IMG/VR virus record: IMGVR_UViG_3300031825_000040
Coordinates: 1 to 40,005 of that record
From: a virus
Length of the DNA: 40,005 nucleotides
Strand: one strand, 5' to 3'
Shown here piece by piece: positions 2,864 to 39,368 of this stretch. The position numbers and the translations under genes were made by a program. Positions within the stretch are counted from its first letter, which is position 1. Every line of letters begins with the position of its first letter. The notes beneath the pieces were generated by a model, which saw nothing but the letters and a program-made list of their open reading frames with translations, did not search any database and was not told the origin of the DNA.

Positions 2864-2983
2864 TCAAGATTCCTCTTTCGTGCTGATCGCCTTACAGATC
2901 AGCCTGTAGTTCCCATAGGCCCCGCCCAAAAAGGCCACGATATGGGCGAGGGCGGTGATCGTCAGGACGGCAACTGGTGTCAT
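2864..2983 (-). CDS. 39-aa single-pass membrane peptide
   Basis: A short gene encoding MTPVAVLTITALAHIVAFLG and then a basic/polar tail ending KAISTKEES. Residues 3-24 are hydrophobic enough for one transmembrane helix. Its ATG overlaps the stop of the reverse-transcriptase fusion gene in an ATGA junction, and it ends one base before the next gene, so it fits the coupled operon exactly. Role unknown; its position gives no direct hint beyond co-expression. Confidence 0.55.
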   Translation of the reverse strand: MTPVAVLTITALAHIVAFLGGAYGNYRLICKAISTKEES

Positions 2984-3717
2984 TTGGCGGCCTCAGCAGC
3001 CATTGCAGTAGAGCGCCGATATGCCTTGGTCAGGCCAAAATCGACGGCATGCCCGCGGTAGCGGATGATCTTCGTCAGGCGCGCGCGGTCGGCATGGCTA
3101 CCAGTCGCCTGCCGCAGCAGGCCGAGGTAGCTGTTCGCCGCGGCATGCACCTCATGTGCCTCTATCTGCGAGAGGCGCTGCGCGCCGACGTTGACGGTGC
3201 GGCGGCGGGTGGTACGCACCCACGGGCGGATGACCTGGCCGACGAAGTCGATGCCACGGCTCACCGGCTGCAGGATGGTCTTCGTCGGGTTCAGCCGCGC
3301 GCCGAGCCGGCGCGGCAGGAACGCCTCGATGTCATCGTGCGCAGCCTTGAGCCATTGGGGCGATTCGTGTAGCAGCAGGAAGTCGTCGACGTAGCGGATG
3401 TAGTGCCGCGCGCCGAGGACATGCTTTGCGTGCTGGTCGAGCACGTCGAGATAGACGTTGGCAAAGAACTGGCTGCTCAGGTTGCCGATGGGTAGGCCGC
3501 GGTGCGTAGGCTGGTTCAGCAAGCGCTTATGCGGTGGCACGAGCGCCATGAGCGCCGGCGGCGCCTGCATGATCACGTCTTGGCGCGGGTCATGCATCAG
3601 CACCATGTCGCCCAACTGCGCTTTGTGGTCGCGTGGCATGTTGCGGGCGAGATCCATCACGACATCGAAGAGGTCGTACGCTGCCTTGTATATGGACGTT
3701 TCGGTATGCAGGCCCAT
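2980..3717 (-). pseudogene. DGR Avd-reverse transcriptase fusion, internally deleted
   Basis: One 245-codon open frame joins two unrelated parts. Residues 1 to ~37 (MGLHTETSIYKAAYDLF..., then NMPRDHKAQLG) match the start of the four-helix-bundle Avd accessory protein of diversity-generating retroelements. From ~38 on the sequence is a DGR-type reverse transcriptase starting just before motif 4: GLPIGNLSSQ at 74-83, the catalytic YVDD at 109-112, the LNPTKT motif near 142-147 and an FVGQVIRPW block. Reverse-transcriptase motifs 1-3, including the first catalytic aspartate, are absent, as are about 80 residues of Avd. Family members are usually 350-450 residues for the polymerase alone. An in-frame deletion from inside avd to inside the polymerase gene explains this and would also have removed a template repeat lying between them. 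It is read with the three target genes immediately upstream. Catalysis is unlikely, though the frame is open and could still be translated. Confidence 0.8.
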
Positions 3718-3735: not shown

Positions 3736-4221
3736 CTAAAGGGATAATCTGCGGACGGCCCGAGCGCGAAACTCGAGGTCCTTGCGGTAGTCGTTCTGGT
3801 CGCCATCGCCAAAGTCCTGGCCCCACGCGTCGTCGGAGTAGCTCTCGGACTGCTCGCCAGACCAGTACCAGGCGCCCTGGAATTCCTCCTTCAGGTTGGC
3901 GTACAGGAGGGACTGCTCTCGGCGCGTCGGCAACTCACCGCCGATCGTAGTGGCCCATACCTTGGCGTCATCCCACGAGACATCCTCGGCCTCTCCATCG
4001 AGCAGAATCAGGTGATAGCTGGGCTCGCCGTCCTTGCCAAGGATCAGGCCGGCGTAGCGTTCACCCGGGCGGAGCGCCGCCAGCGTGATGGGCTCGGGCA
4101 GAGACGCTGGCGCCGGCGTGCCGAGCGCGGTGGCCAGCCAGTTCTTCACGATGACTTCCCTGGGAATGAGGACTTGTGCACCACCGACCTCGACGGACAC
4201 ACTCTCTGCGATTTGCGTCAT
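3736..4221 (-). CDS. DGR target protein 1 (DUF1566/C-type-lectin-like)
   Basis: A 161-residue protein (start chosen at MTQIAESV, preceded by GGAGCAAGCA; an upstream ATG would add four residues). The middle (RYAGLILGKDGEPSYHLILL) and the LPTRREQSLLYAN segment precede a C-terminal YWSGEQSESYS...FRARAVRR, the formylglycine-enzyme-like/C-type-lectin fold typical of DGR targets. The last 39 codons form a variable region equal in length to those of the two paralogues upstream. Asp/Asn-rich residues here replace Tyr/Phe-rich ones in target 2 at the same sites. No signal peptide is seen. It lies 18 bp upstream of the avd-RT fusion, the normal DGR order. Its ligand is unknown. Confidence 0.8.
   Translation of the reverse strand: MTQIAESVSVEVGGAQVLIPREVIVKNWLATALGTPAPASLPEPITLAALRPGERYAGLILGKDGEPSYHLILLDGEAEDVSWDDAKVWATTIGGELPTRREQSLLYANLKEEFQGAWYWSGEQSESYSDDAWGQDFGDGDQNDYRKDLEFRARAVRRLSL
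3751..3867 (-). repeat. DGR variable region VR1
   Basis: A 117-bp segment at the 3' end of target gene 1. It matches VR2 (4295-4411) and VR3 (4778-4894) without indels. The GC-rich end (gcggacggcccgagcgcg on the plus strand) is identical in all three copies and is the candidate initiation-of-mutagenic-homing region. Within the 34 codons from CAG TCC GAG to the end, differences fall only in first or second codon positions. Confidence 0.85.
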
Positions 4222-4276
4222 TGCTTGCTCCATGCGTTTTCGAAATGGAAGGCCGCTACGCAGCTGAATGATTGAA

Positions 4277-4690
4277 TTACTGAGCAGCTACCCTGCGGAC
4301 GGCCCGAGCGCGAAACTCGCCGTTCTCGGGGTAGAAGCTCTGGTAGCCATAGCCAAAGTACTGGAACCACGCGTAGCCGGAGGAGCTCTCGGACTGCTTG
4401 TTGGACCAGTAATAGTCCCGCTTGAACTCATTCGGTCGGTTCGCGCGGAGCAGGCATTGCTCGGCTGGCGTGGGGAGGTCGCCGCCCACTGAGGCCGCCC
4501 ATTCCATGGCTTTCTTCCACGTCTTGGAGACGTCGCCGGGGAGCAGGATCACGTGGTATCCAGCTCCGCCTTCATCGCCAAGAAAATGGCCGCCATAGAT
4601 CTCGCCGGCTGCAAGCGAGAGTGTGATTCCAGCGATTACCACCGTCGTTGCAATGGCCTCGGCTGCCGTATTTTCAGCAAGCTGCGTCAT
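4277..4690 (-). CDS. DGR target protein 2 (DUF1566/C-type-lectin-like)
   Basis: A 137-residue paralogue of target 1, starting MTQLAENTAAE behind GGAGCAAAAA. It shares the pattern G.IYGGHFLGDEGGAGYHVILL, then WAASVGGDLPTPAEQ, then YYWSNKQSESSS and FRARAVRR. The variable sites are dominated by Tyr, Phe and Gly (YAWFQYFGYGYQSFY), a composition common in ligand-binding faces of diversified lectin folds. There is no secretion signal. It is separated from target 1 by 55 bp without a terminator, so the three targets are probably cotranscribed from the leftward promoter. Function is inferred from the retroelement context. Confidence 0.8.
   Translation of the reverse strand: MTQLAENTAAEAIATTVVIAGITLSLAAGEIYGGHFLGDEGGAGYHVILLPGDVSKTWKKAMEWAASVGGDLPTPAEQCLLRANRPNEFKRDYYWSNKQSESSSGYAWFQYFGYGYQSFYPENGEFRARAVRRVAAQ
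4295..4411 (-). repeat. DGR variable region VR2
   Basis: Second 117-bp copy, at the 3' end of target gene 2. It aligns without gaps to VR1 and VR3. Variable codons are TCC, GGC, TAC, TTC, TAC, TAT, TAC, AGC, TTC, TAC, CCC, GAG, AAC and GGC; the corresponding codons of VR1 and VR3 end in the same third base. Confidence 0.85.
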
Positions 4691-4756: not shown

Positions 4757-5416
4757 TTACTGAATGACCAGCATGCTGCGGACGGCCCGAGCGCGAAACT
4801 CGTTGTCCTTGCGGCAGGTGCCCTGGGTGCCAGCGCCAAAGTACTGGAGCCACGCGGTGACGGAGTAGCTCTCGGACTGCGTCGATGTCCAGTAGTAGGA
4901 CTCGCCGTCGAAAGCCTCCATGCCGCCAGCCTGGAATGCGGCAGCAGTGGTCTGGGTCGGGTTGGTTTCCGTGTACGGATAGCCGGCCGGTACGCTGCTG
5001 GGGTTGTCGCCCGAGCGGTAGACGTAGTTGCTCTCGCTGGTCGGCTTGAGATTGCGATAGATGACTTCCTTCTCGTCGCGCGCCGGCAGGTACCAGTCGT
5101 GGAGTCCGTTGATTTGCAGGCCGAGAGCCCACTTGGCGATCTCGCTACCGGCTTCGGCCATCGCCATGGTATTGGCTCGGCCGTCGAAATAGCTCACGGC
5201 GCCGCCGACGCACGCGCGGGAGGAATTCCAGGCGATGTTGTCGTGCTCGCCGCCGTCCTTGGGCGACACGATGACGATGTGGACGCCGTTTGCCTTCCGG
5301 ATCTTGCCGGCATAGAAGCCGCCACCGATGGCATCGCCGGGCTGCAGCGCGTCGGCGGCCGCTTGGTTGATGGTGGTTTGCACTGCGCTCGATTCAACTG
5401 CAGTAACTGCGTTCAT
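4757..5416 (-). CDS. DGR target protein 3, longest paralogue (DUF1566)
   Basis: A 219-residue protein, taking the ATG at 5416 (MNAVTAVESS) because AGAGGATGATC gives it better ribosome-site spacing than the ATG two codons earlier. It is the most complete of the three targets: GDAIGGGFYAGKIR, HIVIVSPKDGGEH, a DWYLPARDEKEVIYRNLKP segment (a classic DUF1566 signature) and YYWTSTQSESYS...FRARAVRS at the end. The last 39 codons are a variable region. It lacks a signal peptide. Being the first target transcribed and nearest to family consensus, it may represent the ancestral target from which the shorter two were duplicated; that is inference. Confidence 0.8.
   Translation of the reverse strand: MNAVTAVESSAVQTTINQAAADALQPGDAIGGGFYAGKIRKANGVHIVIVSPKDGGEHDNIAWNSSRACVGGAVSYFDGRANTMAMAEAGSEIAKWALGLQINGLHDWYLPARDEKEVIYRNLKPTSESNYVYRSGDNPSSVPAGYPYTETNPTQTTAAAFQAGGMEAFDGESYYWTSTQSESYSVTAWLQYFGAGTQGTCRKDNEFRARAVRSMLVIQ
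4778..4894 (-). repeat. DGR variable region VR3
   Basis: Third 117-bp copy, at the 3' end of target gene 3. The constant frame (CAGTCCGAGAGC, GCGTGG, TTTGGC, GAGTTTCGCGCTCGGGCC) is identical to VR1 and VR2, while the codons between differ. The variable residues include Val, Thr, Leu, Ala, Gly and Cys, all reachable from AAC or AAT template codons by changing only the adenines. Confidence 0.85.
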
Positions 5417-5545
5417 GATCATCCTCTGGTATGGGTGTGTGGCACTGCAAAAGGGTCGGGTACTCGCGGCTTCCTGCACATGAGGGAGGTTTCCCGCGGT
5501 GTTTATGGACTTGGGGCTGTCCTGCCGCTTTCCCCGGTTGATCGG

Positions 5546-5874: not shown

Positions 5875-6978
5875 TTACACGCGAAGGGCAGTGAGAATGC
5901 CGCGCCAGCTGCCGTCTTGCAGCAGGTACACGGCGAGATCCTTGCCTTGCTTGCTTGACCACGAGAGTGCAACGTCTTCCGTCTTTACCTGGGCAAGCAG
6001 TCGGAGCAGGTTCGGGCCGTCGAACGAGTTCTCCAGATGCGCCTCGTCGCTACGTGATGTGATCGGCAAATCGGCGTCGACGGACTGAGTCCCGTCTGTG
6101 ATCGTGATTGCGCAGTCCCGCCCGTCTTGCTCGAAGCGGATCACGCCCTTCTCGTCGAAGACTCGGTGCAGCGGGCAAACTTGCAGGAGGTCGTCGCGCG
6201 AGAAGGTGACGAACTCGTCAGGCTGCGGAATCATTCGGCGCCAGTCGAAATAGCGCATGCCCTGGTGTCCGCAGATAATGCGCACGCCACCTCGGCTAGC
6301 GACGACATGTCGCTCATGAATCTCGAAGCGTGATGCCCCTACCTTGGCGAGTAGGTCAGCGCTATCGGCAGGAATGCACACCCCAAACTCCGGCACGGAT
6401 GTACCGAATTCGATGGGCTCAACTGCGAGGCAATTTGCGGCGAGCATGTAGCTGTCGCATGCGACCATGTGAGCCGAATGGCCATCGCATTCGAGCCATA
6501 AATTTCGCAGGACCGGCTTGTCATGGCGAAATAGCCCAGCCACTGCGAACAGGACCGACGGGATCATGTCGGTGAGGCCATGCGCATCAAACACAGCAGA
6601 GGGCTTCCCATCGAGTTTGACCTCGGGGAAGTCCTCCCCCGGTAGCGCCGGAATCGTGAGACGGCAGGCGCCGGCACGCGCGATGACCTTCTTGTCTTGG
6701 GTGGTAAAGCGGATCGTCTCGGCAGTCATGCCTACGAGGGCATTCAGCTTGTCAGCCGGCAGGCAGATGTCGATCTTTCCCGTGCCGGCATCGATGTCCG
6801 CTGGAACCGTGGACTGAACTACCACATGAGCGTCGGAGCCCGTGAGGGTCAGACTGTCACCCTTTGCATGTGCCTGCAGGCGGATATGCGTGAGGATATG
6901 CATCGGAGACTTCGACGGCGCTGCCTGGCTTGCTGCTTTGAATGCTTCGCTCAGATGCTTTCGCGTGATGGTGAGCAT
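5875..6978 (-). CDS. dnaN-like: Phage-encoded DNA polymerase III beta sliding clamp
   Basis: The 367-residue length and overall pattern match the bacterial beta clamp, a ring that holds the replicative polymerase on DNA. The N-terminal domain begins MLTITRKHLSEAFKAASQA and contains LTGSDAHVVVQSTVPADI and KIDICLPADKLNALVG. The centre has CRLTIPALPGEDFPEV, equivalent to the clamp segment with a conserved P-x-L-x-x-x-D/E-F-P. The third domain is more diverged and ends WRGILTALRV rather than the usual MPMRL-type tail, so binding of host polymerase motifs may differ. The gene lies in the leftward early operon, away from the replication initiator in the rightward operon. I am confident of the fold; whether it replaces or poisons the host clamp is unknown. 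Confidence 0.85.
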   Translation of the reverse strand: MLTITRKHLSEAFKAASQAAPSKSPMHILTHIRLQAHAKGDSLTLTGSDAHVVVQSTVPADIDAGTGKIDICLPADKLNALVGMTAETIRFTTQDKKVIARAGACRLTIPALPGEDFPEVKLDGKPSAVFDAHGLTDMIPSVLFAVAGLFRHDKPVLRNLWLECDGHSAHMVACDSYMLAANCLAVEPIEFGTSVPEFGVCIPADSADLLAKVGASRFEIHERHVVASRGGVRIICGHQGMRYFDWRRMIPQPDEFVTFSRDDLLQVCPLHRVFDEKGVIRFEQDGRDCAITITDGTQSVDADLPITSRSDEAHLENSFDGPNLLRLLAQVKTEDVALSWSSKQGKDLAVYLLQDGSWRGILTALRV

Positions 6979-38237: not shown

Positions 38238-39368
38238 CTAACGGGCCGCGGCAGTGCTGTCTGCCGCGGCAAAACGCTTGTGGCGTGCATCCGGAATGTA
38301 CCGGTCGCGAAGAGCCAGAAATGGCCTCTCGATGAGACTGTATGTCAGGACCGATGTCGCGATCACCAGCGTCAGGTAGCATGCAAATTCGGCTAGGCGA
38401 AGCCCGAAAGCCTGTCCGAACTCAAGGTAGTGTAGGGCGAAGTAATAGAGAGGCATGTTCGCCAGGTACATCGAATATGACCATTTCGACAGACGACCAG
38501 TGATAGACACAACAGGGCCCGGGAGTCGTAACCCCATGCCGAGCGACAGCGCACCGCAGATGCCGATTGATGCGAACGTGAGAATCAAGAAGCGGAACAC
38601 GACCTGCGACATGCCGGGGACCCCGGTTGTGAAGCCGATGAGTGGCAGCGGCAGAAAGCACACCATGATCCAGCCCATCGCCCGCAGCAGACGCGGCTGT
38701 CGAGCAGCCATGTACCAATGCGCGACGGCCAGCATCACACCCCACATCAGCGAGTCCAGACGCAACAGCGCAATCTTCCGGATGTTGCTGTCCCACGGCG
38801 CGTCTGTGATCGCGGCGTTGTATCGCAGCGCCATCGACAGGCAGAACAACGCGAGCAGCGCTGTGATCAGGGCTGCCATCGGGCGCCGCACGATCGCCCA
38901 TGCGGCAAGGAACGTCGTTGGTAAGAGCAGATAGAAGACCTCCTCGACCGCGAGGCTCCATGCTTCGGGGAAGAACGTCGGGTGCGGGGAGAGTAGGTTC
39001 TGGGCAAACACCACGTATTGCGCGACGTCGGCCTGCCTCACTGCAAGCCATCCGCCCCAGAGCATCCACAGGTTGATGGCCAGATAGAAGTAATAGTTGG
39101 GAAGCGTGCGCATCCACCGTCGGCTCATGAAGTTCAGCAGCACGCGCGGTGATCCGTCGAAGTTGTGAATAACGCCGATGAAGATCGACCCGATCAGGAA
39201 GCCGCTCAGGCAGAAAAATATCTCGACTCCCATCACACCGAAGACCGTTTGGAACGGAATGAGGCCTTCCTTGTGAAATAGCTCGAACCCATGAGACAGC
39301 ACCACCAAAGTGACGGCGATGGCTCTGCAAAGGTCTAGCCACTGGTTGCGGCCTGTCTGGACGGGCAT
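38238..39368 (-). CDS. Membrane acyltransferase (OafA-like), probable lysogenic conversion gene
   Basis: A 376-residue integral membrane protein of acyltransferase family 3. RNQWLDLCRAIAVTLVVLSH begins helix 1 with the family's conserved R...H, and FGVMGVEIFFCLSGFLIGSI is the G-V-x-x-F-F-x-x-S-G-F block. About ten helices follow, including AEAWSLAVEEVFYLLLPTTF-like W-S-L-x-x-E-x-x-Y (SLAVEEVFYLLLP). It should acetylate or otherwise acylate a surface sugar such as O-antigen. It is on the opposite strand within the fibre region, an independent unit likely expressed in the lysogen, and would block adsorption of related phages. No SGNH domain is attached. Spacing to fibre assembly gene: 12 bp, convergent. 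Confidence 0.88.
   Translation of the reverse strand: MPVQTGRNQWLDLCRAIAVTLVVLSHGFELFHKEGLIPFQTVFGVMGVEIFFCLSGFLIGSIFIGVIHNFDGSPRVLLNFMSRRWMRTLPNYYFYLAINLWMLWGGWLAVRQADVAQYVVFAQNLLSPHPTFFPEAWSLAVEEVFYLLLPTTFLAAWAIVRRPMAALITALLALFCLSMALRYNAAITDAPWDSNIRKIALLRLDSLMWGVMLAVAHWYMAARQPRLLRAMGWIMVCFLPLPLIGFTTGVPGMSQVVFRFLILTFASIGICGALSLGMGLRLPGPVVSITGRLSKWSYSMYLANMPLYYFALHYLEFGQAFGLRLAEFACYLTLVIATSVLTYSLIERPFLALRDRYIPDARHKRFAAADSTAAAR
38245..38270. repeat. Perfect 10-bp inverted repeat at convergent gene ends
   Basis: GCCGCGGCAG (38245-38254) and CTGCCGCGGC (38261-38270), loop 6 nt, inside the last codons of the acyltransferase gene and 20 bp after the fibre assembly gene. No U run on either strand. 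It may act as a bidirectional RNA-stabilising or weak termination hairpin between convergent transcripts. Confidence 0.6.

Follow-up and report, generated by a model that had tools for sequence, protein, structure and literature searches.

Homing of the BPP-1 DGR has been reconstituted, and Avd, the template repeat (TR) and the active site of the reverse transcriptase (RT) were all found to be required (PMC12875486). In a laboratory recipient of the same phage, BPP-1ΔATR, the sequence between position 48 of avd and position 882 of brt was deleted, and the variable repeat (VR) still retrohomed when avd-TR-brt was given in trans (PMC3240598). Inactivated DGRs were described in the DiGReF survey, where RTs truncated by nonsense, frameshift or insertion, with the TR kept and with VRs showing A-only changes, were read as very recent cases (PMC3521204, Fig. 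4). Intact DGRs, all with the order targets, avd, TR, RT, are carried by Cupriavidus sp. IDO (L083/L009), C. pauculus UM1 (L084/L014), C. basilensis (L082) and Burkholderia phage Magia; the Magia annotation flags its target as a possible DGR target.

The locus described here lies in the window, i.e., the whole stretch of 40,005 bases of viral DNA that was analysed. Its RT is 65–82% identical, in the shared part, to those of the intact Cupriavidus prophages and Magia but, unlike these loci, which have complete avd, TR and RT (open frames of 427–523 aa in Cupriavidus), it lacks all three in complete form. As in BPP-1ΔATR, sequence is missing from inside avd through the TR to inside the polymerase gene, with target gene and VR intact; the BPP-1 deletion was engineered, whereas that of the window is natural, concerns a DGR with three targets and has an in-frame junction. 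The locus can thus be regarded as a natural copy of the deletion built in laboratories for DGR homing in trans, with three diversified targets still readable. It shares with the DiGReF cases a truncated RT and VRs with A-only changes, but here one deletion appears to have taken the TR together with half of the RT and most of avd. The remnants of avd and RT are as follows.

2980..3717, minus strand: single open frame of 245 aa, ATG start (the fusion)
3612..3717, minus strand: Avd-derived N-terminal part, residues ~1–35, first helix region only (phrog_3206; blastn)
2980..3611, minus strand: C-terminal half of a DGR RT, with motif 4, motif 5 and thumb (phrog_1423, RVT_1, 8ub7_A)
3607..3629, minus strand: deletion junction (where identity to relatives changes from avd to RT; ends of BLAST pieces)

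A profile search against PHROGs matched residues 3–39 of the fusion to phrog_3206 ('Avd protein of DGR', positions 12–48 of 154, E 1.9e-5) and residues 37–230 to phrog_1423 ('Reverse transcriptase', positions 266–451, E 1.2e-50). This is in accordance with the initial annotation, in which the first ~37 residues were read as Avd and the following ones as a DGR RT entered just before motif 4. The avd part showed 78–79% identity by blastn to avd of the related loci L006, L003 and L005 over fusion nt 1–95; about two-thirds of the Avd length is gone, and neither a complete Avd nor another accessory protein is present. The RT-derived part spans residues ~36–240, starting just upstream of motif 4, and has 82% amino acid identity to the Cupriavidus basilensis RT. 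It retains motif 4 (GLPIGNLSSQ, residues 74–83, conforming to the DGR-type (I/V/L)GxxxSQ), motif 5 (YVDD) and the thumb, and is without motifs 1–3, hence without motif A and the first catalytic Asp, so that the RT is incomplete. Indeed, Pfam RVT_1 is covered at model positions 112–203 of 205 only, and the best solved RT, 8ub7_A (a BPP-1-type DGR RT chain of 328 aa), aligns with the fusion over residues 177–290 only. The lack of a TR, also pointed out in the initial annotation, extends from the vicinity of the RT to the whole 40,005-base record, where no full avd, second avd or second RT was found either and only three VR copies were detected. This gene is most likely a scar, and its annotation as a functional RT is to be avoided.

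The window's own TR being gone, the VRs were compared with one another and with the TRs of relatives, the TR of the distant phage L003 (L003:5487-5590; same sequence in L005 and L007) serving as reference for the differences. Targets and VRs are located as follows.

3736..4233, minus strand: target gene 1, 165 aa, Lcl_C/DUF1566-like (ORF, Pfam, PHROGs)
3749..3852, minus strand: VR of target 1, 15 differences from the L003 TR, 14 at A (Fisher P 2e-7)
4277..4690, minus strand: target gene 2, 137 aa, Lcl_C-like
4293..4396, minus strand: VR of target 2, 19 differences from the L003 TR, 18 at A (Fisher P 5e-10)
4757..5479, minus strand: target gene 3, ORF of 240 aa from GTG, likely starting at a later ATG; Lcl_C above the Pfam cut-off
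4776..4879, minus strand: VR of target 3, 18 differences from the L003 TR, 17 at A (Fisher P 2e-9)

All three target genes are intact, lie upstream of the fusion and carry at their 3' end a 104-bp VR differing at TR adenines. The VRs differ from one another at 16, 16 and 18 positions, all 50 of which are A in the L003 TR, and at none of the 70 non-A positions. The sole non-A difference from the L003 TR, a C to T change at position 41 (0-based), is common to the three VRs. Since all mutual differences fall at A sites and the T at position 41 is found in all of them, the three VRs were written by one TR, now gone; their differing among themselves only at TR-adenine positions suggests that the DGR was active until recently.

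With respect to relatives, avd DNA identity stops at fusion nt ~90–99 and RT identity begins at nt ~102–115, thus placing the breakpoint around fusion residues 33–37, a position defined to about 20 bp only. The sequence TTGGGCGAC is found at the junction (window 3615-3607), where a 4–5 bp microhomology between avd and RT, of the GGCG/GGCC type, is possible. When the window was aligned on relatives of the usual gene order, a block of ~0.99–1.03 kb was missing in most comparisons. Against the Cupriavidus sp. IDO locus, the BLAST pieces end at window positions 3629 and 3614, and 1,043 bases lie between them in IDO, so that 1,028 bp net are missing from the window; against the C. pauculus UM1-type prophage the net loss is about 1,000 bp. 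Because comparison with the syntenic intact loci reveals a single gap of ~1.0 kb, one deletion running from avd into the RT gene, as postulated in the initial annotation, would explain at once what is lost from avd, the absence of the TR and that of the RT motifs.

To evaluate how common this arrangement is, 163 related loci were compared, comprising 80 viral and 80 genomic loci from scans with the fusion and three annotated phages. In this comparison, which the initial annotation had suggested for intact avd-TR-RT loci, avd and RT occupy separate frames in 153 loci and share one frame in none, and the remaining 10 have no avd match, four of them because the locus starts inside the RT frame. 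Neither a degenerate peptide pattern spanning the junction nor a gapped pattern linking Avd MPRD to RT GLPIGN at the spacing of the fusion, which does recover the window itself, found any match in IMG/VR. Among 60 Cupriavidus genomes, eight contain a relative of the RT, always as a full frame of 427–523 residues, and none contains the fusion. The identical junction, which the initial annotation proposed to look for in other strains, was thus not encountered in the pattern scans, the 163 loci or the 60 genomes. An established Avd-RT fusion family was discarded as a candidate, no second example having emerged from these three sets, in which records nearly identical to the window may be hidden; no full-length family of this architecture was found, and the first 37 residues are Avd-like.

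These data are very probably explained by a recent loss-of-function deletion of ~1.0 kb in a standard three-target DGR, which left a non-functional in-frame Avd-RT chimera. A Cupriavidus-type temperate phage would once have borne a standard target-avd-TR-RT element with three targets, and one deletion, from about avd codon 35 to just before RT motif 4, would have taken away the TR entirely, together with two-thirds of avd and with RT motifs 1–3. The junction would be in frame by chance, so that the 245-residue chimera stays open. Since homing depends on Avd and TR as well as on the active site of the RT, diversification in cis should be dead: a chimera that has neither the first catalytic Asp nor the Avd barrel, and for which no template RNA is left, could not sustain mutagenic retrohoming in cis, and the three VRs would be frozen at their last variants. 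The frame would have stayed intact through recency and not through selection on the chimera.

One in three random deletions between two genes is in frame by chance. Of about 28 Burkholderiaceae genomes in which a close RT occurs, 3 have a truncated or frameshifted DGR RT, which puts the background rate of decay at about 10%. Given this chance, and since broken DGR RTs are not rare, the open frame needs no selective explanation; its presence, as originally described, was confirmed, but it is less surprising than first thought. Among the broken Burkholderiaceae DGR RTs, those at G317:C1:2806466-2807417 and G292:C15:338241-339277 are interrupted by a frameshift or an internal deletion. Another, at L109:5890-6627 (Paraburkholderia monticola; probably G071), is truncated at almost the same place as in the window, with homology starting near ISEPFWRALTELVLMHDP; it arose by a different event, its upstream sequence being neither avd nor RT. 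The L109 RT is not fused and no avd or target-gene match was found within that locus, which is thus uninformative on retained function.

As regards timing, none of the 66 synonymous-equivalent non-A sites has changed in any of the three VRs, setting an upper limit of about 4.5% since the last homing if non-A VR sites become free once homing stops. Non-A sites are slow while a DGR works, 69 of 70 being shared with the distant phage L003 (RT dS about 1.3). VR identity as a strict clock is weakened by this conservation of non-A TR sites between distant phages, and it was retained as an upper bound only. The TRs of L003, L005, L006 and L007 are identical or nearly so at non-A positions, with adjacent RT genes that are synonymously saturated (dS about 1.2–1.3); such near-identity across phages would reflect either a strong constraint or sequence exchange among elements. 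At columns conserved at 97% or more the RT fragment does not deviate, and its comparison with the nearest RT relative gave a dS of 0.41 and a dN/dS of 0.22. A recently inactivated DGR is recognisable by a broken RT together with VRs without non-A substitutions, and both are found here. The VRs free of non-A change and the undamaged RT fragment thus point to a recent loss, the first of two options considered in the initial annotation, and the same argument was applied in the DiGReF survey to inactivated DGRs whose VRs had changed at A only (PMC3521204). The locus provides, in this respect, a datable example of a phage losing hypermutation.

Among the other explanations, a recipient-only ('VR-only') phage, whose own machinery was lost and whose VRs are diversified in trans by the matching DGR of a co-resident prophage, the fusion being inert, appears unlikely. 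Such a route is practicable in BPP-1, which with an almost identical engineered deletion retrohomed and switched tropism when avd-TR-brt was given in trans (PMC3240598); moreover, the L003 TR, the same in L005 and L007, fits the window VRs at all non-A sites but one, and two DGR RTs do occur in one Burkholderiaceae genome (G147). However, no second DGR is present in the record, the low number of Cupriavidus genomes with such an RT (8 of 60) makes co-residence uncommon, and the T at position 41 shared by the VRs is absent from the TRs of L003, L005, L006 and L007, suggesting that the last TR to write the VRs was of their own type. It is likewise improbable that the loss of machinery is tolerated as 'cheating', with VRs open to the DGRs of other phages through near-identical TRs and an in-frame chimera that might tune that machinery. 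The locus offers a clean way to ask if the DGR of another prophage can rewrite VRs.

It is very unlikely that the chimera has been retained as a protein interfering through its binding to nucleic acid or to an intact DGR complex, and the corresponding proposal of the initial annotation, a non-catalytic job for the fusion, gained no supporting evidence. The frame is open, and the RT fragment has undeviating conserved columns and a low dN/dS, yet this conservation is equally expected under a recent deletion, and the architecture is unique among the 163 related loci, the 60 Cupriavidus genomes and the IMG/VR junction scan. The structure model suggested in the initial annotation, built with AlphaFold on 40 sequences, was poor: the C-terminal thumb part is confident (pLDDT mostly above 90) and is the only region to be so, no confident palm was obtained, and mean pLDDT (66.8) and pTM (0.40) are low, with motif 4 and much of the Avd part below 50 in pLDDT, the N-terminal prediction being weakened by an alignment that contained no Avd rows. 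Foldseek with this model retrieved no match in the PDB at E <= 0.001, and the structure was dropped as a functional guide. Furthermore, one Avd helix is not sufficient to form the Avd bundle. An assembly artefact, in which a metagenomic or prophage contig was wrongly joined and the real genome is intact, is very unlikely, even if the fusion is in one record only, as the sequence at the junction is unique avd and RT sequence away from the TR/VR repeats that confuse assemblers, its shared sequence of about 5 bp is far below usual assembly word lengths, and much of the remaining record is collinear with an isolate prophage.

The best reading is therefore a recent and ordinary loss of function, of which only the in-frame scar is unusual. 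We propose that the phage that underwent this loss is temperate, contractile-tailed and of Cupriavidus type. The closest whole phage is the C. pauculus UM1-type prophage, with a terminase 99% identical in protein, a DNA identity of about 96% over 18–34.7 kb, and ~84–96% over the structural region (window 16629-37078). This prophage carries an intact DGR (L014, L084) at the same place, beside a sliding-clamp-like gene (phrog_947); the cassette of this DGR is only ~72% identical in DNA to that of the window. Given this difference between cassette and structural region, the cassette was presumably exchanged between phages. The parent DGR locus was not recovered among the relatives, the closest phage by structural genes having a divergent DGR.

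In the RT of Magia (L162:3789-5072, QPB08726.1), residues 33–62 match the window VRs, the annotated start reading through the TR; its true start probably lies downstream of the annotated one. In the window, a DNA polymerase processivity factor (sliding clamp, phrog_947; 5875-6978) is encoded just upstream of the target genes of this temperate phage. An O-acetyltransferase gene (phrog_3333, phrog_6705; 38238-39368) adjoins the tail-fibre genes, and may possibly serve surface modification (serotype conversion).
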